Source of the DNA: a virus
Reading direction: 5' to 3' (one strand)
Virus record (IMG/VR): IMGVR_UViG_3300036799_000056
Coordinates: 1-30,658 of that record
DNA length: 30,658 bases
This document shows, one piece after another, positions 5,062 through 30,658 of the stretch. Below the pieces are notes generated by a model, which saw only the letters and a program-made list of their open reading frames with translations, ran no database searches and had not been told where the DNA came from. How positions within the stretch are numbered: the stretch's first letter is position 1; every line of letters starts with the position of its first letter. The translations under genes and the position numbers were made by a program.

Positions 5062-6993
5062 ATGGCAAGCGCAAACCAAACAGCTCGATTCGGGATCGCG
5101 CTCGACGCGGATGAAACCGTTGACGCAGCCGCTGAGGCAAAAGCGGCGCTCGAAGAATTGCGCGCGTCGATCAAGGGCGACACAGACGAGATCGGCCAGA
5201 TGCAACGCGCCCTCAAAAACTTGAAGGGCGCGACAGTCGTCAACGTCGATCAGGTGAAGCGCTTGACCGATGCGCTCACCACGAAAAAGGCGGCGGTCGC
5301 AGACGCTCAATCCAAGTTCATCGCGCTCGGCGGATCGTTTCGCACGGCCGCAAAGAACGCGGGATCGGGCGAAAGTGCATTCAGCAAAATGCAATCGCGG
5401 ATCGGCGAGCTCGAAGGCAAGCTGAAAGGCGGTGCCGACGCCGCGAAGAAAAACGCGGAAAGCTTCGATGAGTTTGCGAAGGTCGCGACGAAGTTGCCCG
5501 GTCCGCTCGGCAACGTGGTCGGTAAGCTCGGTGAGCTCAAGAGTTTGATCACGAGCTCGGGCTTTGCGCGGTTCGCGATCATCGCGGGCATGTTTGCGCT
5601 GATCGCTGCGTCAGTTGCAGCGGGCGCGGCGCTCACGAAATACGCGATCGGGCAAGCCGATGCTCGTCGCTCTGAGCTGTTGCGCATCGAAGGTCTGACG
5701 AAGCTTCGCAACTGGTACGGGATCGCGGCCGGCAACGCCAAGGAGATGCAAGCGGCGATCGACAAAGTCGCGGCGAGCACGCCGACCTCGCGAGAGAAGA
5801 TCACCCAGTATAGTGACGAGCTCTACAAAATGCATCTTCGCGGCGACGCGTTGACTGAGACGCTCGAAGCGATGTCGATCAAAGCGAGCGTGCAGGGCGA
5901 TGCTGCTGCCCATGCGTTCGCAGGCTGGGCGGCTGGCGCAAACCTAACAGGTCAGTCGGTCAAGCGTCTGAGCGACAACGTGAAAGCGCGCTTGGGCGGC
6001 ATTGCTGCGAAGCAAATGGAATCGCTCACGGTGCAAGCCGAGAAGCAGCAGGAGGCGTTTGACGCGCTGTTCAATCGCGTCAACGTCGATCCGTACGTCA
6101 AAGCAAAAAAAGGTGTGAGCGATCTACTTTCGCAAACGACCAACAGCGGCAAGGCGCTGCAGACGATGGTCACGCACATCACGCAGCCGTTCGTGGACAT
6201 GGCGACGCGCGCGCAGCCCTACATCAAACGCTTTTTCCAAGGGATGATCATCGCGGCGCTACAGCTCGATATCGTCTACCAAAGGCTGCGAATCAAGTTC
6301 AAAGAAACGTTTGGCTCGGGTGTCAAGACGAACGGGATCGACAAGATGCGCGTAGCGGTAATGGCTGGATACACCGCTGTCTCGTTGCTGATCGGCGTGC
6401 TCGCGATCGCCGCGGGCGAGATGGCGATCTTCGCCGCGCCGGTGCTGCTCGCAGCTGCGGCGATTTGGGGTCTGTTTGAGATCGTCGATCAGCTCTATGC
6501 GCTGTGGAAGGAGATCGATTGGAGCGAGCTCGGCTCTGCGATCGGCGACGGCATCGTCAACGGGCTCAAGGATGACGCGACGTTGATCAAGAAAGCCGTG
6601 GGCGGCTTGGCCGATGATGCGCTGAGCGGATTCAAGAGCGCGCTCGGCATTCACTCGCCGTCGACCGTGTTTGCCAAGCTCGGCGTTGCGATCCCGGAAG
6701 GCGTCGGCGTTGGCGTCGAAGCTGGCGCACCCAAGGCGCAGGCGGCTGTTGACAACATGATTGGCATGCCGCGCATTTCAAGCGGCGCGGCTGACAGTGG
6801 CGGCGCACCCTCGGGTAACCCGAGCGCGCCCCGTGGCGGGCCAACCACGGTCAACGTGAACGTGGGCGACATCAACATCGCCGCGGGCGGCAGCAAGCAA
6901 TCTGACATCACGCAATCGCTGCGCGACGAAGTCGCGTCGATCTTCGAAGGCGTTGCGATTCAGCTGGGCGCGATGCTGCCGGGGGGTGCGTGA
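5062..6993 (+). CDS. Tail tape measure protein
   Basis: At 643 residues this is among the longest genes here, and it sits after the chaperone. Residues 20-140 are Ala/Lys/Glu-rich coiled coil; a hydrophobic helix follows at about 168-192 (FAIIAGMFALIAASVAAG), and two more hydrophobic stretches lie at 431-475. The HSPSTVFAKLG segment at 531-541 is the typical C-terminal hallmark of tape-measure proteins, followed by VGVGVEAG and a Gly/Pro-rich linker. It fixes tail length and probably helps DNA cross the membrane. The predicted protein is short, so the tail would be of modest length. The start ATG lacks a strong ribosome-binding site. Confidence 0.85.
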   Translation: MASANQTARFGIALDADETVDAAAEAKAALEELRASIKGDTDEIGQMQRALKNLKGATVVNVDQVKRLTDALTTKKAAVADAQSKFIALGGSFRTAAKNAGSGESAFSKMQSRIGELEGKLKGGADAAKKNAESFDEFAKVATKLPGPLGNVVGKLGELKSLITSSGFARFAIIAGMFALIAASVAAGAALTKYAIGQADARRSELLRIEGLTKLRNWYGIAAGNAKEMQAAIDKVAASTPTSREKITQYSDELYKMHLRGDALTETLEAMSIKASVQGDAAAHAFAGWAAGANLTGQSVKRLSDNVKARLGGIAAKQMESLTVQAEKQQEAFDALFNRVNVDPYVKAKKGVSDLLSQTTNSGKALQTMVTHITQPFVDMATRAQPYIKRFFQGMIIAALQLDIVYQRLRIKFKETFGSGVKTNGIDKMRVAVMAGYTAVSLLIGVLAIAAGEMAIFAAPVLLAAAAIWGLFEIVDQLYALWKEIDWSELGSAIGDGIVNGLKDDATLIKKAVGGLADDALSGFKSALGIHSPSTVFAKLGVAIPEGVGVGVEAGAPKAQAAVDNMIGMPRISSGAADSGGAPSGNPSAPRGGPTTVNVNVGDINIAAGGSKQSDITQSLRDEVASIFEGVAIQLGAMLPGGA

Positions 6994-7535
6994 TGGCTGC
7001 GCCATCGGCAAAAAATTGGAACCCAATTTCACAGCCGGTGAATCGGTTTCTGCTCATGCAGAAAGCCTCGCCCGGAATCTGCGAGATCTCCGGCGCTGAC
7101 TCGCCACGCAAATGGGATGAGCTCGATGGTTACGGATTGAGCGGCGCGCGACTTCGCTACCGGGGGCTCGGCGTCTGTCACTTCAGCGCGATGCTGTCGC
7201 TGTATACCGAGCAAGACTGGTCCGACTGGGAGGCGTTCGAGCCGCTCGTCAAGCGCGCGCCACTCGGCAAGTTTGCGCGTGCGATGGACATCTATCACCC
7301 GCTGTTACAGCGGCTCGATATCAAATCTGTGGTTGTCGAAAACGAAGTCGGCGCCGTGCAGTCCGACGACGGCGTGTGGACCATCGAGATCAAGTTTATT
7401 GAGTTTCGAAAGCCGAAGCTTGCGCTTGCAACTCCGGACGGTGCCGCCGCAACGCCAGCCGATCCGTACGATGTGCTGATCGGCCAGCTGAATGATCAGG
7501 CGAATGACCTCGCTGCAAAGGCGGATGCGCTGTGA
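6993..7535 (+). CDS. Tail/baseplate protein of unknown family
   Basis: A 180-residue protein between the tape measure and the hub/spike. I chose ATG 6993, which overlaps the tape-measure stop (TGATG); a GTG at 6990 would add one residue. It contains PGICEISGADSPRKWDELDGYG and VENEVGAVQSDDGVWTIEIKFIEFRKP, a beta-rich middle part typical of small hub-adaptor proteins, and a C-terminal segment DVLIGQLNDQANDLAAKA that looks helical. Position suggests it links the tape measure or tube to the baseplate hub. I do not recognise a named family. Confidence 0.5.
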   Translation: MAAPSAKNWNPISQPVNRFLLMQKASPGICEISGADSPRKWDELDGYGLSGARLRYRGLGVCHFSAMLSLYTEQDWSDWEAFEPLVKRAPLGKFARAMDIYHPLLQRLDIKSVVVENEVGAVQSDDGVWTIEIKFIEFRKPKLALATPDGAAATPADPYDVLIGQLNDQANDLAAKADAL

Positions 7536-8725
7536 GCGACGACGCTGCATTCGCAACAGTGAACGGCAGCCGCGCGACGCGCGTGCACCTGTTCGTCGGC
7601 AACAAAGGCCCGTGGTACGCCGACGTCGATTTCGAAGACGCGCCTGACTTGTCAGGCCATGTCACGATCAAGCTTGGTGAGCTGTCGCTACAGGGCACGA
7701 TAGTTCCCGCGCAAGACGGAACCTTCGGAGGCTCGCGTCGCTCGCGCATCGTTGCGGGTGGTGGTGGATGGGGGGACGAGCTCGCTGCGAAGGGTTATCA
7801 CAACGACGCTGGCATCAAAGCCGAGCTCGTTGCTCAAGACGCTGCGCGTGAAGCGGGCGAAGTGATCGGCGGTTTTGTTCCGTTCGCTGAGCGCATCGGC
7901 ATCGACTATGCGCGTCAGGCCGGCACTGCTTCGAAAGCGCTCGAAGACGCGATCGGCGATGTTCCGTGGTGGGTTGATTACAACGGCATTACGCAGGTCG
8001 GAGCGCGCCCGGCTGTCACGCTCGCATCGGCTGACTATCAGCTCGTCGCATACGATCCGCGCGCGCGCATCGCGACGCTATCAATCGACGACCCGAGCAT
8101 TATCGTCCCGGGCGTGGTGCTGAGTGATCGGCTCGACATCCCGCAAACGATTCGAGAGTTTGAGCTCGTTGTCGGCGGCGAAGGCGATGGCCTACGCGTC
8201 ACGGCGTGGATGGGCGGCGACGTATCGGAGGAGGGTCGACTCGCGCAGCTTATGCGTTCGATCATCTTGCGCGCGACCGACGGCTGCGTGCACGGCGTGT
8301 TCCGCTATCGCGTGATCCGCATGGCAGCCGACGGGCGCGTCGAGCTGCAAGCGATTCGCAAAGTGGTCGGATTGCCGGATCTGTTGCCGGTGTCGCAGTG
8401 GCCGGGCGTGGCGGGTGTGCATGCGGAGTTGACGCCCGGCGCAACGGTGCTCGTGCAGTTCGTTGACGGGGACCGCACGCAACCGATCATCACGGGTTAC
8501 GAAGGCAAAAACGGCGCGGGCTTCGTGCCGGTGTCGCTGTTCGTCGGCGGCTCAACGGGGGAGCCCGCCGCTCGGAGCGGCGACGCGGTCGAAGTGTTGT
8601 TGCCCCCCGCGGTGTTCAGCGGCTCGATCGGCGGTGCACCGGCGAGCGGCGTGCTGACGTTTCCGATCGGCAAGACGAGCGGCACGATCACTGCGGGTTC
8701 ATCGAAAGTGAAGGTCGCGACATGA
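7532..8725 (+). CDS. Baseplate hub fused to gp45/gpV-like spike domain
   Basis: Residues 1 to about 225 resemble Mu gp44/P2 gpD-type hubs: AGGGGWGDELAAKGYHNDAG (75-94), then a helical stretch and GDVPWWVDYNGITQVG. Residues about 285-335 form the OB-fold pattern of spike proteins (PGATVLVQFVDGDRTQPIIT, then GYEG). The C-terminus (about 340-397) is a Gly/Ser/Thr-rich beta region. A single 397-residue chain would thus provide hub and membrane-piercing spike base, which Mu splits in two genes. The GTG start overlaps the previous stop (GTGA). ATGA links it to the next gene. Confidence 0.7.
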   Translation: MSDDAAFATVNGSRATRVHLFVGNKGPWYADVDFEDAPDLSGHVTIKLGELSLQGTIVPAQDGTFGGSRRSRIVAGGGGWGDELAAKGYHNDAGIKAELVAQDAAREAGEVIGGFVPFAERIGIDYARQAGTASKALEDAIGDVPWWVDYNGITQVGARPAVTLASADYQLVAYDPRARIATLSIDDPSIIVPGVVLSDRLDIPQTIREFELVVGGEGDGLRVTAWMGGDVSEEGRLAQLMRSIILRATDGCVHGVFRYRVIRMAADGRVELQAIRKVVGLPDLLPVSQWPGVAGVHAELTPGATVLVQFVDGDRTQPIITGYEGKNGAGFVPVSLFVGGSTGEPAARSGDAVEVLLPPAVFSGSIGGAPASGVLTFPIGKTSGTITAGSSKVKVAT

Positions 8726-26192: not shown

Positions 26193-26288
26193 TCAGCACT
26201 TCGCCGCCTGGGTTGCAGCCGAGCGCGTGAGCAAGCGGAGCTGTACCGAGCACGCTTGCCGCATTCGCTCGTCGCGTGTCGTCGTCAT
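26193..26288 (-). CDS. Very small ORF coupled to the repressor gene, uncertain frame
   Basis: ATG 26288 overlaps the repressor stop (ATGA) and gives MTTTRDERMRQACSVQLRLL plus 11 residues. A competing frame, GTG 26253 to TGA 26176, reads LGTAPLAHALGCNPGGEVLT and runs exactly into the next GTG start (GTGA overlap). Both are short; coupling at the two ends favours different frames. At least one is probably translated between the repressor and the membrane protein gene. Confidence 0.25.
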   Translation of the reverse strand: MTTTRDERMRQACSVQLRLLTRSAATQAAKC

Positions 26289-26905
26289 CGTTTTCGCCTG
26301 ACCTTTTCTCGACGTGTGCTTGCGAGGATTTCCTCGCCTCGCGCACGCACTCGGGCCGGAGTGATGGGCCGCACCCCCTTCGACAGCGCGGCGTGCAGCG
26401 TGCGTTGATCGCGTGCGTGGTTAGCCGCAGCCGTGATCGCCTCAACGTGTGGTTGCCCCGCTTCGCGCGCGGTCGCGTATGCGGCCAGCCAGCCAGCCAC
26501 GAATGAGCGTGTGCAGCGTGCATAGCGCCCCGCTGGCGTTGCGCGCCATTCACCGAGCGCGCGCGCTTGCTCGTCTGTTGCGCGCAGCTGATCGAGTAGC
26601 GCGATGATCTCGCCATCGGACATCGAGTGCTCGATCGTGGGGACCTTCCGCTCGTCGAGCCCGTACCACAAATCTTCGACCGTGTAACCGACGAGATCGC
26701 ACGCACGCATGATCGTCGCGATATCGGGTAGCGCGCCACGGTCCCACGCTAAGACCGTTGCGTAGCGCCGGATCCCGAGCGCCGCGGCGAAACTCGCCCG
26801 GGTGTATCCCGCGCGGCGGTACGCCGCCCATAGCCGGCGGCTGAATGTGCTTTCTGCAAGCGGGTTTGTCGCGTCGGGTTCCGAAAGCGTTTTGAGTCCT
26901 GCCAT
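26285..26905 (-). CDS. XRE-type helix-turn-helix protein, probable phage repressor
   Basis: From ATG 26905 with GGAG 6 nt upstream; 206 residues. Residues 22-84 form an XRE/HTH_3 domain: SRRLWAAYRRAGYTRASFAA, then ALGIRRYATVLAWDRG and LPDIATIMRACDLVGYTVED. The remaining 120 residues are mostly helical and basic (for example RSFVAGWLAAYATAREAG), without the Ser-Lys dyad of LexA/CI peptidase domains that I could recognise. It is divergent from a Cro-like gene with two operators between them, the normal immunity-region layout. It is the best candidate for the protein that binds the five operator sites, but specificity is not proven. Confidence 0.65.
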   Translation of the reverse strand: MAGLKTLSEPDATNPLAESTFSRRLWAAYRRAGYTRASFAAALGIRRYATVLAWDRGALPDIATIMRACDLVGYTVEDLWYGLDERKVPTIEHSMSDGEIIALLDQLRATDEQARALGEWRATPAGRYARCTRSFVAGWLAAYATAREAGQPHVEAITAAANHARDQRTLHAALSKGVRPITPARVRARGEEILASTRREKVRRKR

Positions 26906-26949
26906 ACATCTCCGCACTGCTGACCTGGGGGCTCTCCTAACTTCGCTCA

Positions 26950-26958
26950 AATATACCA
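26950..26958 (-). promoter_or_regulatory. Possible extended -10 promoter for the repressor gene
   Basis: On the minus strand TGGTATATT (26950-26958) fits an extended -10 (TGnTATAAT). It would start RNA near 26943, giving a leader of about 38 nt with a good ribosome-binding site. No -35 box is clear. It lies about 43 bases from operator C1, so the repressor gene could stay on while the early promoter is shut. Confidence 0.35.
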
Positions 26959-27000
26959 TCGGCGCAATGCTTGGGCGCTCGACCGATGACGCCACGGGGC

Positions 27001-27037
27001 TAGACTGTTGACAGTATTATGCTGTCGACGGTATATA
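27001..27037 (+). promoter_or_regulatory. Early promoter with two overlapping operators, C1 and C2
   Basis: C1 TAGACTGTTGACAGTATT (27001-27018) and C2 TATGCTGTCGACGGTATA (27018-27035) have the same one-base overlap and 17-bp centre spacing as B1/B2. The plus-strand promoter has a consensus -35 TTGACA (27008-27013), 18 nt, then TATATA (27032-27037). Only 8 nt separate the -10 from ATG 27046, so the message is probably leaderless or has a leader of 1-2 nt. It drives the Cro-like gene and the replication operon. The opposite-direction boxes (TCGACA and TCTAGC, N18) are weak. Confidence 0.75.
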
Positions 27038-27045
27038 CGGGCGCC

Positions 27046-27345
27046 ATGACTCTCGACGAATGGTGCACGCTGCATGGACATGGATCGGTTGCGCAGCTCG
27101 CTCGCGAAACCGGCATCGGCGAGCCGACGATGTACCGCTACCGAAACGGTAGACAGGCGGCGCGCGCGAGCAACAACGCCGAGCTGATCGCCGCGGAGAC
27201 GTACGCTTGCCGGTGCAAGATTTGCCGACGCTATCGCTCGCACAAGGCGCGTTTGACCGGCGCTGTCAGCGTCGAATCGCTCCGTAACCCGACGCCCGTC
27301 GAGCGCTCAAAAAAGCGCAGTCGGCGCGATCGGGTGGCGGCATGA
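27046..27345 (+). CDS. Cro-like small HTH protein with CxCxxC cluster
   Basis: From ATG 27046, 99 residues. An HTH (residues 13-52) reads GSVAQLARETGIGEPTMYRY followed by RNGRQAARASNNAEL, close to YdaS/Cro-type proteins. It continues with YACRCKICRRY (Cys55, Cys57, Cys60), which may bind metal, and a basic tail (KKRSRRDR). It is the first gene of the rightward early operon and is opposed to the repressor. I did not use ATG 27019 because it lies inside operator C2 and upstream of the predicted transcription start. There is no ribosome-binding site, consistent with a leaderless message. Confidence 0.6.
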   Translation: MTLDEWCTLHGHGSVAQLARETGIGEPTMYRYRNGRQAARASNNAELIAAETYACRCKICRRYRSHKARLTGAVSVESLRNPTPVERSKKRSRRDRVAA

Positions 27346-27749
27346 GTCCCGCGCGCCTCGTAGTGATCGAGTCGCCCTTTGCCGGGCTCATCGAGCGCAA
27401 TCTCGTTTACGCGGACATGTGCCTGTTCGATTCGCTGTCGCGCGGCGAAGCGCCGATGATGGGGCACTTGCTTTATCCGCGCGTGCTCGACGACCTGAAC
27501 GCCGACCATCGCGAGCGCGGCATCGCAGCTCATTGCGCTTGGATTGGCGCCGCTTCGCTCGTCGCTGTGTACGCTGACAACGGTGAGAGCGTCGGCATGG
27601 TGCACGCGGTGCAGTACGCGCGCGATCGCGGCATCCCGGTCGAGCGGCGCGAGCTCGGTCCGGATTGGATGGAGCGATCGACGCGCTTGCGTAGCACGCC
27701 CGGCTTTCCCGTCGTTCGACTTCACAACTTGAAAGGCACCACCCCATGA
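27342..27749 (+). CDS. DUF7768-like (nucleoside 2-deoxyribosyltransferase fold) protein
   Basis: A 135-residue protein with VVIESPFAGLIERNLVYADM at the start, DSLSRGEAPMMGHLLYPRVL, and a Rossmann-like end VAVYADNGESVGMVHAVQYA followed by RDRGIPVERREL. This is the pattern of the small DUF4406/DUF7768 group related to nucleoside 2-deoxyribosyltransferases. Such proteins are common in phages and are suspected to act on nucleotides, but no activity is established for this type as far as I know. It is ATGA-coupled to both neighbours. Confidence 0.6.
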   Translation: MSPARLVVIESPFAGLIERNLVYADMCLFDSLSRGEAPMMGHLLYPRVLDDLNADHRERGIAAHCAWIGAASLVAVYADNGESVGMVHAVQYARDRGIPVERRELGPDWMERSTRLRSTPGFPVVRLHNLKGTTP

Positions 27750-28156
27750 CCGCGCCGAATGCTGCGACCACTGTTGATCGCCGTCTCATGTGCAGGCTGA
27801 CCGATGACGAGATTCGCGAACGTGGCGTCGAGATGTCCCGAGAGGAGCTGCGGATCGAAGTGTTGAAAGGGGAGCGCAAGGCCCTGAACAGTCGAATCGC
27901 CGACCACATCAAGCAACGCAACATGCTCGCGCACACGATCGACATCAAGGTCGAGCTTCGCGAAGTCCCGTGCAAGTGGAGCAAGGACGTCCAGGAAAAG
28001 CGCTGGCTGCTGCGCCGCTTCGACACGAACGAGGTCGTCGAGACGCAGCCGCTCTCAGCTGCGGACCGTCAACTCGATGTCGAGCATGATCTTGGCGTCG
28101 AGCCCGAGCCGATCGGCAAGCGTCCCAAGCGCAAGCACCTGCACCCCGTCGCTTGA
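27746..28156 (+). CDS. Small charged coiled-coil phage protein
   Basis: A 136-residue protein: MCRLTDDEIRERGVEMSREE and a long charged helix (VLKGERKALNSRIADHIKQR), then REVPCKWSKDVQEKRWLLRR and a segment FDTNEVVETQPLSAADRQ. I know this outline (a coiled coil plus a short beta C-terminal part with VRLDTGEVVE-like end) from early regions of many phages, where it has no assigned function. ATGA coupling links it to the preceding gene. Confidence 0.5.
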   Translation: MTAPNAATTVDRRLMCRLTDDEIRERGVEMSREELRIEVLKGERKALNSRIADHIKQRNMLAHTIDIKVELREVPCKWSKDVQEKRWLLRRFDTNEVVETQPLSAADRQLDVEHDLGVEPEPIGKRPKRKHLHPVA

Positions 28157-28190
28157 TCGCGTGTGTTTTCTTTCACTGATGGAGGCCCGC

Positions 28191-28424
28191 ATGTCGGAGC
28201 CCGATAGGTCACGTGCGCCCGCATTGGTAGAGTTAGAGGCTCGCCTCACCGAGGCGACTCGGTCGTTCGTCGGCGAGCGCAACACCGAGCGCAATCGCCT
28301 CCGCGCTGAGACGCTGCTCAACACGATGCTGCTCGCGATGGGCGATGTCATCCCACTACGAGCTCGCGTGACCTACGAGGGCACCGTGCTCGTAGTGACG
28401 CTCGAAAAGATCGAGCGTTCATGA
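28191..28424 (+). CDS. Small hypothetical protein, 77 aa
   Basis: ATG 28191 with GGAGG at ideal spacing; an ATG at 28179 in the same frame is a less likely start. Residues 10-45 form a charged helix (ALVELEARLTEATRSFVGER), then TLLNTMLLAMGDVIPLRARV and a short beta end (VTYEGTVLVVTLEKIERS). No family is recognised. It lies between the coiled-coil protein and the primase-helicase and is ATGA-coupled to the latter, so a replication-associated role is possible. Confidence 0.45.
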   Translation: MSEPDRSRAPALVELEARLTEATRSFVGERNTERNRLRAETLLNTMLLAMGDVIPLRARVTYEGTVLVVTLEKIERS

Positions 28425-30457
28425 GCGGCGGCGTCGCGATGCTGCAGGCCGCGCTCGACTTGGCGGAGCAAGGCTATCGCATCCTGCCGCTACATCATCC
28501 GCTGTTCGACGGATCGGGGCGGTGCAGTTGCAACGATGCCGACTGTGCCAGCGTCGGCAAGCATCCGCGGCTTCGCGAATGGCAGGTGCGTGCGACGTGC
28601 GACGCGACGCTGATCGATGATTGGTGGGCAGGCGATCCGTGGGCGAACATCGGTGTTGCAACCGGATCGGCATCGGGCTTGGTGGTGCTCGACGTCGACA
28701 GCCAAGCCGCGCTCGACGCGCTGATCGACCAGGTCGGCAACGCGCTGCTCGCGACCGCGCCAGCTGTCCGCACGGGGCGCGGCTGGCACTACTACTTTCG
28801 CTATCCGAGCGATGGCATCGTCATCAAAAACACGGTGCGTCTGCTCGGCATTGATGGTGTCGACCTGCGGGGCGAAGGTGGCTACGTCGTCGCGCCGCCG
28901 AGCGTGCACGCGACGGGCGCGCTGTATGAGTGGATCGGGCGCGAGCTCGAACCGCCCGACGTTCCAACGTGGATGATGATGCCAGCGACGACCTCGACAG
29001 CAGTCGAGGCTCGCGCGGCTAACGGCGCCGCAGCTGATGGCGGCGGAACTGATCGCGCTGAGCGCTACTTGCGATCGGCGATCGACGCCGAGTGCGCGAA
29101 GCTGCTCGCGATCGGAGTCGGCGGGCGTAATAAGCAACTCAATGCCTCGGTGTTCAAGATCTCGCGCTACGTGTGGGGCGGTCAACAGCGCTTCGAAGGG
29201 CTGGTCAAGACCACCTTTTTGAACGTGGCGCGGCAAGCTGGCCTCAGCGAGCTTGAAACTCGTAGGACGATAAAAAGTGGCTACGATGCCGCGGCGAAGT
29301 GGCCTCGCGCGATTCCCGAGCCATCGGCAAGCGGCGCGTATGCGGACGATGATGATGGGGCAGTGCCGCCACCTCCGAGCGACGAGTCAGCGCCACACCC
29401 GGCCGATAGCAATGCAGCTGGGAGCGGCGGGCGCATCACTTGGGTAGAGAGCGACAAGATTTTTGCAGAGCTATTTGCGCAGCGCTGGGGCGTTCAGGGG
29501 CTGCAGATCGGACCGGGGCGACCGACGCTGATCGCTGGGTATGGCGCGTCGGCAAAGACGCTCAGCGCGCAGTCACTGGCGCTCGCCAAAGCCTCGGGCC
29601 GACTCGTGTGGAATCGCTACGAGTGCGATCCGGGCGTCGTATTACATATCGACTACGAACAGGGTCACTACGGTACTGCCAAGCGATATCAGCGCCTCGC
29701 AAAGGGACACGGCATTTCGCTCGATGAGCTCGGCAACCGATTGCGCTATGCGGCGTTGCCATCGGTCATGCTGGATGGAACGGCGGCGCTCGACGCGTTG
29801 CTACGCGCGTGTGATGGCGTCGAGCTCGTCATCGTCGACTCGCTGAAAGCATCGAGCCCGGGTCTCGATGAAAACGACGCCAAGATCCGGACCGTGCTCG
29901 ATCGGATGAATTACGTCAGCGATCGCACGGGCGCGGCGTTCGTGCTGCTGCATCACGCGGGCAAGCCGCGCGAAGGGCACTCGACAGACTCGCGAACGTT
30001 GGCCCGTGGTCACAGCGCGATCTTCGATGCTGCGGGATGCGTTTACAACCTAGTCGCGGGCGCGACCGGCGGCGATCCCAAGAGCGTCACACAGGCAAAA
30101 ATGCCGGCGGAAGCGGAGGGCGCTCCGATCGAGCCGTTTGAGCTCGTCGTCGAAGACGTGGTGATCGGCGACGCGCCGAGTGGCGGCGTGCGTGTGGTGT
30201 GGCGTCAAGGCGCGTCGAGCCATCCGGATGCACGCGCTTCGGCAACCTTCGAGCGCGACATGAAGCGAATGCTTGAGGCCGTGCGGCGCGCGGGGCCGCA
30301 CAAATCTCAGCTCGAAATCATCGAGTCATCCGGCCTGCGAAAGGCCCGCGCGCACAGCCTGCTCAAAGTGCTGTGCGAGCGGGGGGCAATCGTTGCCATT
30401 GCAGGAATCGGCCGATCGGTGAATTACCAGGAATCAACCACCAAAGGTAACCAATGA
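28421..30457 (+). CDS. Bifunctional primase-polymerase / RepA-type helicase
   Basis: A 678-residue replication protein. Residues 10-185 form a prim-pol domain: GRCSCNDADC (Cys35, 37, 42), GKHPRLREWQ, NIGVATGSASGLVVLDVD (Asp91, Asp93) and GRGWHYYFRYP (His123). After a Pro/Ala/Asp-rich linker (about 300-335) comes a RecA/AAA_25-like ATPase: PTLIAGYGASAKTLSAQSLA (Walker A at 373-380, its second Gly replaced by Ala), VELVIVDSLKA (Walker B, 467-477) and VLLHHAGKPREGHSTD. The C-terminus (about 600-670) looks like a winged helix. It should prime and unwind phage DNA at the origin; an iteron-like array follows immediately. Confidence 0.8.
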   Translation: MSGGVAMLQAALDLAEQGYRILPLHHPLFDGSGRCSCNDADCASVGKHPRLREWQVRATCDATLIDDWWAGDPWANIGVATGSASGLVVLDVDSQAALDALIDQVGNALLATAPAVRTGRGWHYYFRYPSDGIVIKNTVRLLGIDGVDLRGEGGYVVAPPSVHATGALYEWIGRELEPPDVPTWMMMPATTSTAVEARAANGAAADGGGTDRAERYLRSAIDAECAKLLAIGVGGRNKQLNASVFKISRYVWGGQQRFEGLVKTTFLNVARQAGLSELETRRTIKSGYDAAAKWPRAIPEPSASGAYADDDDGAVPPPPSDESAPHPADSNAAGSGGRITWVESDKIFAELFAQRWGVQGLQIGPGRPTLIAGYGASAKTLSAQSLALAKASGRLVWNRYECDPGVVLHIDYEQGHYGTAKRYQRLAKGHGISLDELGNRLRYAALPSVMLDGTAALDALLRACDGVELVIVDSLKASSPGLDENDAKIRTVLDRMNYVSDRTGAAFVLLHHAGKPREGHSTDSRTLARGHSAIFDAAGCVYNLVAGATGGDPKSVTQAKMPAEAEGAPIEPFELVVEDVVIGDAPSGGVRVVWRQGASSHPDARASATFERDMKRMLEAVRRAGPHKSQLEIIESSGLRKARAHSLLKVLCERGAIVAIAGIGRSVNYQESTTKGNQ

Positions 30458-30648
30458 GCCTACTGGTTCCCTATTGGTTCCCAACTGGTTCCCGGAACCA
30501 CCCCCATACTGGTTCCCCCAAACAACACCCTCTTAAGGGGTGTGTTTGGGAACCAATGGGCTGGGGCCGTGGGGACCGGGATCGGGACCGGGAACTAGTA
30601 AACGAGAGATTCGAACGCGGCGAGCTCGGCAGGGGGGTGACTGTATGA
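30454..30648 (+). CDS. Small ORF spanning the iteron array, 64 codons
   Basis: The frame begins with an ATGA overlap to the primase-helicase and ends with an ATGA overlap to the next gene, which argues for translation. The product is low-complexity: WFPTGSRNHPHTGSPKQHP, then a Gly/Arg/Asp-rich part with GRGDRDRDREL. The DNA repeats are read in different frames, so selection seems to act on DNA. It may be a spacer ORF that lets ribosomes cross the origin region. Confidence 0.35.
   Translation: MSLLVPYWFPTGSRNHPHTGSPKQHPLKGCVWEPMGWGRGDRDRDRELVNERFERGELGRGVTV
30464..30555. repeat. Iteron-like TGGTTCC array, candidate replication origin
   Basis: Four direct copies of TGGTTCCC (30464-30471, 30475-30482, 30486-30493, 30510-30517) and two inverted ones (GGAACCA 30494-30500, GGGAACCA 30548-30555). 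The first three are spaced exactly 11 bp, about one helical turn. TGGTTCCCGGAACCA (30486-30500) is a perfect 15-bp palindrome. The position right behind the primase-helicase is typical of phage origins. No clear AT-rich unwinding element is visible apart from short patches. Confidence 0.65.
30510..30555. repeat. Large stem-loop within the iteron region
   Basis: TGGTTCCC-CC-AAACA-A-CACCC, a TCTTAAG loop, then GGGTG-TGTTT-GGGAACCA: a near-continuous stem of 18 bp with a CC bulge and a single A bulge. Its outer arms are two of the iterons. No T-tract follows, so a terminator is unlikely; an origin hairpin is the preferred reading. Confidence 0.6.
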
Positions 30649-30658
30649 CAGCCATCGC
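30645..30658 (+). CDS. Start of next early gene, cut by window end
   Basis: ATG 30645 overlaps the preceding stop (ATGA) and has a strong AGGGGGG 7-13 nt upstream. Only MTAI and two bases of the next codon are visible, so nothing can be said about function. Confidence 0.4.

Follow-up and report, generated by a model that had tools for sequence, protein, structure and literature searches.

Introduction

The origin of phage lambda has its iterons within gene O. RSF1010 uses three separate proteins, RepA, RepB' and RepC, of which RepC binds the iterons. In other elements the origin follows the gene for the initiator. The PICI origin lies 3' of pri-rep, and its function was tested by plasmid maintenance; its layout of two iteron sets was called unique to PICIs (PMC6092414). 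In SCCmec, the C-terminal domain of Cch2 binds iterons 3' of its gene, and the preferred primase start sequence resembles these iterons (PMC7581432). The plasmid pRN1 has a stem-loop origin 3' of its PrimPol-helicase-winged-helix gene, and the encoded protein showed no binding to its downstream region in gel shifts (PMC4234260). PrimPol-PV1 and PrimQH are primase-helicase-winged helix fusions of mobile elements, with a winged helix predicted to recognise the origin (PMC5862659). For initiators that fuse PrimPol, helicase and winged helix, reference has been made to "not yet identified sequence motifs" (PMC4234260).

Here we describe a repeat array at the right end of a virus record from IMG/VR (IMGVR_UViG_3300036799_000056, positions 1 to 30,658; the whole 30,658-nucleotide stretch is referred to as the window). 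The likeness to PICIs and SaPIs lies in an initiator primase/helicase gene with short iterons behind it. In those elements two iteron sets enclose an AT-rich centre, a layout that our wider PrimPol sample fits better than the window does; the words differ between element types. In contrast to PICIs and SaPIs, the primase here is that of a tailed phage, with PrimPol and RepA/SF4 helicase domains, and the array is contained in a coupled reading frame. Unlike a PICI/SaPI satellite island, which has no virion genes of its own, the window also contains genes for tail sheath and tape-measure-like proteins. As with Cch2 of SCCmec, the iterons are directly downstream of a helicase gene, but SCCmec has an MCM-like helicase, a separate polymerase/primase pair, and only three short AAGTG iterons. 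pRN1 shares the PrimPol-helicase-winged helix protein and a large stem-loop closely following the 3' end of the gene, but it has an SF3 helicase, no iterons, a non-coding region, and no specific binding detected; the window has a stem-loop, but its iterons are prominent and its helicase is of the RepA type. Lambda O and DnaD-like phage replisome organizers (the latter in L013, L015, L020, L025, L030) also have iterons in coding DNA of the early operon. Theirs are inside the initiator gene, whereas here they occupy the unconserved front of the next gene. RSF1010 oriV resembles this locus in its RepA-type helicase, PrimPol-type primase and iteron origin (partly PMC4234260), with the difference that there are three proteins there and one polypeptide in a phage here. 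In contrast to the array described here, no iterons or binding sites were reported for PrimPol-PV1 and PrimQH (PMC5862659).

Iteron origins 3' of an initiator are already known; here the two-set layout is seen behind many PrimPol-helicases. The literature searched, with most subscription journals outside it, held no earlier description of TGGTTCC iterons, of translational coupling across origins, or of an array in the unconserved front of an initiator-coupled gene.

Results

The primase-helicase gene and its surroundings

The gene adjoining the array encodes a replication initiator/helicase (Table 1), with Pfam matches to PF09250 (E 1.6e-39) and PF13481 (E 5.9e-24). Its nearest solved homologue by sequence is RSF1010 RepA (1g8y, E 2.4e-5), which is also among the best fold matches (Foldseek E 1.5e-7). 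The gene belongs to a rightward operon with HTH regulators upstream, and HTH genes are found close by at 26285-26995 (-) and 27019-27345 (+). An AlphaFold2 model covers 29441-30454, the last 338 residues of the protein. At its C-terminal end, helices (264-284, 290-297 and 301-313) are followed by strands (318-320 and 326-328). This helix-helix-helix-strand-strand succession is the order of a winged helix, a predicted domain in which we have fair confidence for the helices and poor confidence for the wing: mean pLDDT is 61, with values of ~70-83 over most of the helices and 39-54 in the wing. Matches to HTH_IclR/MarR_2 in this part are weak, under Pfam cut-offs.

Table 1. Features at the right end of the window, in order of position.
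Feature	Positions	Strand	Description	Basis
Primase-helicase	28421..30457	+	678 aa; PrimPol, RecA/RepA-type hexameric helicase (AAA_25) and C-terminal winged helix; proposed initiator	
C-terminal winged helix (predicted)	30230..30424	+	proposed iteron-binding domain	AlphaFold2 model
One-mismatch copy of the unit	30446..30455	+	GGTAACCAAT; overlaps the helicase stop codon	
64-codon ORF over the array	30454..30648	+	AAAGG upstream; same position as the 237- and 203-aa ORFs of the relatives	
Left iteron set	30462..30493	+	ACTGGTTCCC, ATTGGTTCCC, ACTGGTTCCC at 30462, 30473, 30484; 11-bp phase	
Large stem-loop	30504..30559	+	direct and inverted iteron at its bounds; tip around CTCTTAAGGGG	
Fourth direct iteron	30508..30517	+	at the stem-loop base	
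Inverted iteron	30548..30557	-	GGGAACCAAT on the + strand	
Inverted iteron	30590..30599	-	GGGAACTAGT on the + strand; slightly degenerate; overlooked in the initial annotation	
Start of next gene	30645..30658	+	ATG ACA GCC ATC G; AGGGGGG before it	

The repeat array

As the initial annotation had described, six copies of TGGTTCC lie within 30464-30555 (30464+, 30475+, 30486+, 30494-, 30510+ and 30549-), the first three spaced at exactly 11 bp. The remainder of the 30.6 kb has a single further copy (19582-). This account of the content stands, but the unit and the extent had to be revised: the true unit is 10 bp long (AYTGGTTCCC / GGGAACNANT), and the array extends to 30599. Exact AYTGGTTCCC occurs only six times in the 30,658-bp record (direct at 30462, 30473, 30484 and 30508; inverted at 30548 and 30590), always in 30462-30599. 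The array begins 7 bp past the stop codon of the primase-helicase. A perfect 15-bp palindrome, also recorded initially, is present at 30486-30500 as a 7-bp inverted repeat about one central base (TGGTTCC-C-GGAACCA); the 30494- copy in this pair matches the 7-mer only. Among 253 overlapping 360-bp tiles of the window, no tile but that of the array shows any heptamer more than four times in a 110-bp span. As in an iteron origin, the array consists of several short, helically phased repeats, far above chance.

The bulged stem-loop reported earlier is real: the DNA fold of 30455-30565 has an energy of -26.2 kcal/mol (z -3.4), equalled by no shuffle. Three direct iterons are placed to the left of this hairpin and inverted ones to the right, and the centre is a strong hairpin that is not markedly AT-rich. 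A run of hexamers at 30571-30596 (GGGACC-GGGATC-GGGACC-GGGAAC) precedes the last inverted iteron and may represent decayed iterons. Cumulative GC skew, suggested initially as a check, is uninformative on the origin because the record ends at the array.

The mini-ORF over the array

The initial annotation placed the array in a mini-ORF with ATGA overlaps at both ends, and these were found at 30454 (helicase stop) and 30645 (next ATG). The record end at 30658 leaves the next gene just four codons long. It is the DNA that is repeated and not the protein, as had been argued, because the six heptamers fall in frames 1, 0, 2, 1, 2 and 2 of the mini-ORF. The further claim that the array is kept translatable does not follow from the window, where 11-21% of shuffles also leave the 64-codon frame open (P 0.11-0.21), a result that is not significant alone; it draws support from the coupled array-spanning genes of the relatives and from open sense frames in 40 arrays (see below). 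Because the relatives have longer coupled array-spanning genes, the mini-ORF probably corresponds to an abbreviated version of the unconserved front of a real gene, and not to a special ORF confined to the array.

Arrays in related phages

Relatives were reached via the tail sheath, which led to 64 relatives in IMG/VR, and the primase was then sought in 50 of those records. Two of the 50 had full-length primase-helicase homologues, 47% and 45% identical (L675/L678 and L676/L679). A direct search of IMG/VR for primase homologues and a search with a divergent alignment found none. In both true relatives an array is present directly 3' of the primase-helicase, the place at which the initial annotation had suggested looking. 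One array has five copies of AGAACCA (= TGGTTCT) from stop+168 to +248, with very stable hairpins, and the other has nine copies of AGTACCG (= CGGTACT) from stop+60 to +215. Position and architecture are kept and the word drifts, from TGGTTCC to TGGTTCT to CGGTACT. An alignment of the three primase-helicases shows the winged-helix part to be visibly less conserved than the helicase part.

Both relatives also have an ORF that runs from the primase stop through the whole array (237 and 203 codons), with GGAG at a plausible distance. In L678 it is coupled by GTGA at the primase stop and by GTGA with the next ORF (4-nt overlap). In L679 the primase stop TAG is directly followed by ATG, and a 4-nt ATGA overlap joins the next ORF. 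The window (ATGA/ATGA), L678 and L679 share a doubly coupled ORF over the array. The C-terminal ~125 aa are common to the relatives' array ORFs (39% identity, E 7e-19). The match between these ORFs is confined to that part, and the array-coding front parts are unrelated; the array peptide is not conserved as protein. A protein kept over scrambled repeats, named initially as the pattern that would speak against the proposal, was sought in the relatives, and the opposite was seen: the array persists, the peptide is unrelated and the word drifts. L678 has no in-frame ATG or GTG between the array and the conserved domain, the only later candidate starts being TTG codons within the domain; the array is therefore translated in this phage, barring the use of a rare start codon.

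The relatives are 61% identical in the gene that follows the array ORF (L678 rc 7243-7986; L679 rc 5694-6359). This gene encodes a LAVDTA..SGWAIS motif reminiscent of RuvC-like resolvases and has no Pfam match. A MRILAIDPGN protein is found at the corresponding position in L018. In L014 and L033, the array and hairpin differ by two or three bases and the flanking genes differ throughout; a strong AGGAG-preceded ATG is located after the array. In L004 and L018 the array core is conserved while the coding DNA around it varies, and indels in the spacer that leads to the next gene alter frame joining. Both pairs point to conservation of DNA and not of protein.

Arrays behind PrimPol-helicase genes in general

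Whole genomes supplied a sample of PrimPol (PF09250) genes, chosen irrespective of repeats; their 3' flanks were taken and near-duplicates were removed. An array was scored when at least five copies of one heptamer occurred within 110 bp between stop-60 and stop+300, with windows from the same loci as controls. In the first sample, arrays were identified at 15 of 93 full-length PrimPol-helicase genes versus 2 of 1,105 control windows, and in a separate later sample at 11 of 40 versus 1 of 378. In the pooled set, to which some genomes contribute several PrimPol genes so that the loci are not all independent, at least five copies lie just 3' of the stop in 26/133 genes versus 3/1,483 control windows, and at least six copies in 16/133 versus 0/1,483. 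Dinucleotide shuffles of the first 69 flanks gave no array (0/1,380). Approximately 80% of the sampled PrimPol-helicase genes have no exact-heptamer array by this strict test, which would miss degenerate iterons; in these the iterons may be degenerate or the origin elsewhere. A variable-gap repeat scan was swamped by coding repeats of period 3n.

The word depends on the lineage (AGTTACC, CGGACCA, CCGGACA, GGAACGA, CGGGGAC, CCCTCGC and others), and the commonest iteron spacings are 9-12 bp. Twenty-four arrays are made up of two iteron sets, 26-58 bp apart, and the DNA between the sets has a GC content lower than the gene's by a mean of 15 points. Arrays composed solely of direct repeats are found at the equivalent location behind other PrimPol-helicases. 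One proteobacterial genome (G743, L513-L516) has six PrimPol genes; arrays of 5-6 copies lie behind at least four of these, and their words are not all the same.

TGGTTCC and control words at other loci

The triple TGGTTCC-N4-TGGTTCC-N4-TGGTTCC was found at 33 viral loci. Where a replication gene is recognisable, the triple lies behind SF4 helicases with PrimPol, Toprim or DnaB parts, or inside DnaD-like genes, which were called as replisome organizers by eye, with DnaB_2 identified by Pfam in two. The arrays in DnaD-like replisome-organizer genes are also phased at 11 bp (L013, L015, L017, L020, L025, L030, L273, L291, L309, L318, L324). Apparently they occupy a linker past an N-terminal winged-helix-like region, in phages or prophages of Firmicutes type. 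Triples also occur directly behind genes for Schlafen/AlbA_2 + HATPase_c_4 proteins (L292, 6517-7900, and L293) and directly behind the gene for another protein ending in a winged helix (L319). These loci, archaeal MAGs included, perhaps represent the same recognition in a non-replication setting.

The reversed-heptamer control, CCTTGGT, gave 11-bp triples at 15 viral loci and is not a clean null, because several of these resemble replisome-organizer genes by eye. With the control word as ACCAAGG, arrays phased at 11 bp are seen inside ORFs that resemble replisome-organizer genes (L334, L343, L344, L345). Phased heptamers, in many different sequences, may mark phage origins in general. TGGTTCC as a single universal word was rejected, since the word differs per lineage. 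We also rejected the notion that every TGGTTCC triple is an origin, given that several in bacterial genomes are perfect tandem 11-mers at a distance from replication genes. Perfect head-to-tail 11-mer TGGTTCC arrays in bacterial genomes (L282, L298, L315, L328) look like minisatellites.

Open reading frames over the arrays

Frame openness was evaluated for 27 arrays, comprising 7 viral TGGTTCC loci (window included) and 20 genome loci, with the expectation obtained by spacer shuffling. An array-spanning ORF from the helicase stop is present in 20 of the 27 (11.2 ± 2.2 expected), and the coupled frame, which begins 4 nt ahead of the stop-codon end, is open in 18 (9.2 ± 2.3 expected). Open sense frames number 42 against 27.0 ± 3.5 expected, and antisense frames 24 against 24.5 ± 3.5. 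A replicate of 13 arrays gave 16 sense frames (10.1 expected), 17 antisense (12.1; p 0.03) and 7 coupled (3.4). For the pooled 40 arrays the counts are 58 sense versus 37.1, 41 antisense versus 36.6, and 25 coupled versus 12.6. Sense frames are open more often than antisense frames in this pooled set (58/120 versus 41/120, Fisher p 0.036), a contrast that rests on the first sample and the pooled set because the antisense frames of the replicate are also slightly more open. Overall, there is moderate support for a general tendency to keep array frames open, with the two relatives as a strong case.

Discussion

The best explanation of the array, judged from sequence, is that it is likely to be the initiator-binding part of the phage replication origin. 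On the comparative side, the origin reading of the initial annotation is well supported, by both relatives and by the excess of arrays behind PrimPol-helicase genes over control windows. We predict that the C-terminal winged helix of the PrimPol-helicase would bind the 10-bp iterons, three of which share a helical face. Bound copies would assemble the RepA-type hexamer and open the duplex at a less stable centre, or at the stem-loop, between direct and inverted iterons. The helicase would then unwind, and the PrimPol domain would prime at the opened site. This mechanism is modelled on cases that are proven, in full or in part: PICIs (PMC6092414), SCCmec Cch2 (PMC7581432) and pRN1 (PMC4234260).

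The array lies inside the early operon in readable DNA, probably because a gene that starts on the initiator stop carries the iterons in its protein-unconstrained leading segment. Ribosomes could cross the origin to the downstream genes without a translational gap. The simplest reason for keeping the frame would be the coupling of downstream early genes and the avoidance of such a gap, the latter drawing on general knowledge of polarity.

Alternatively, the array could be an operator or autoregulation site by which the primase-helicase or a phage HTH regulator controls early transcription, without serving as an origin. Operators, too, typically contain phased repeats and palindromes, and HTH genes are nearby, but no sigma-70-like promoter was found in 26800-30658, and the divergent regulator region is without an exact 10-mer. 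The array is also in mid-operon behind the initiator gene, and its position tracks the helicase across unrelated hosts. We regard an operator as improbable. The structure could also work in RNA between the primase and the gene after it, as a terminator, attenuator or riboregulator, a role that we consider very improbable. The stem-loop is strong in RNA (z -3.4), but no T-run follows the large stem and the Rfam matches are sub-threshold only. A weak terminator-like match at 30456-30469 falls in a region having fewer such matches than its shuffles, and promoter and terminator scans gave nothing above shuffles. Furthermore, the iterons occur in both orientations with a phase of about one helical turn, as in double-stranded DNA binding, and the arrays of direct repeats only behind other PrimPol-helicases also speak against a function in RNA.

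The array might also be an origin in an essentially untranslated spacer, in which case the open frame would be a by-product of stop-poor iterons and GC-rich DNA. TGGTTCC and GGAACCA are indeed stop-free in every frame, the frame of the window stays open in the proportion of shuffles given above, and L014 and L033 have their strong start past the array. However, the coupled array-spanning ORFs of both closest relatives lead in frame into a conserved domain, which in L678 has no later ATG or GTG before it, and in the pooled arrays an excess of open frames is seen in sense but not in antisense. An untranslated spacer is thus somewhat unlikely.

Returning to an origin within a translated frame, we tentatively propose a common design for PrimPol-helicase phages and prophages of several bacterial phyla. 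The winged helix would read a lineage-specific heptamer array in the protein-unconstrained front of a coupled gene, translation would pass through the origin, and the word and the winged helix would drift together. If this is true, co-drift would yield a natural series of specificity variants (TGGTTCC, TGGTTCT, CGGTACT and others). The arrays, present in two relatives and at ~20% of the sampled PrimPol-helicase genes, provide concrete candidate sites and matched protein/word pairs. On this evidence, the iteron layout described as peculiar to PICIs may be widespread, and coding DNA may conceal an origin and so leave the early operon uninterrupted.
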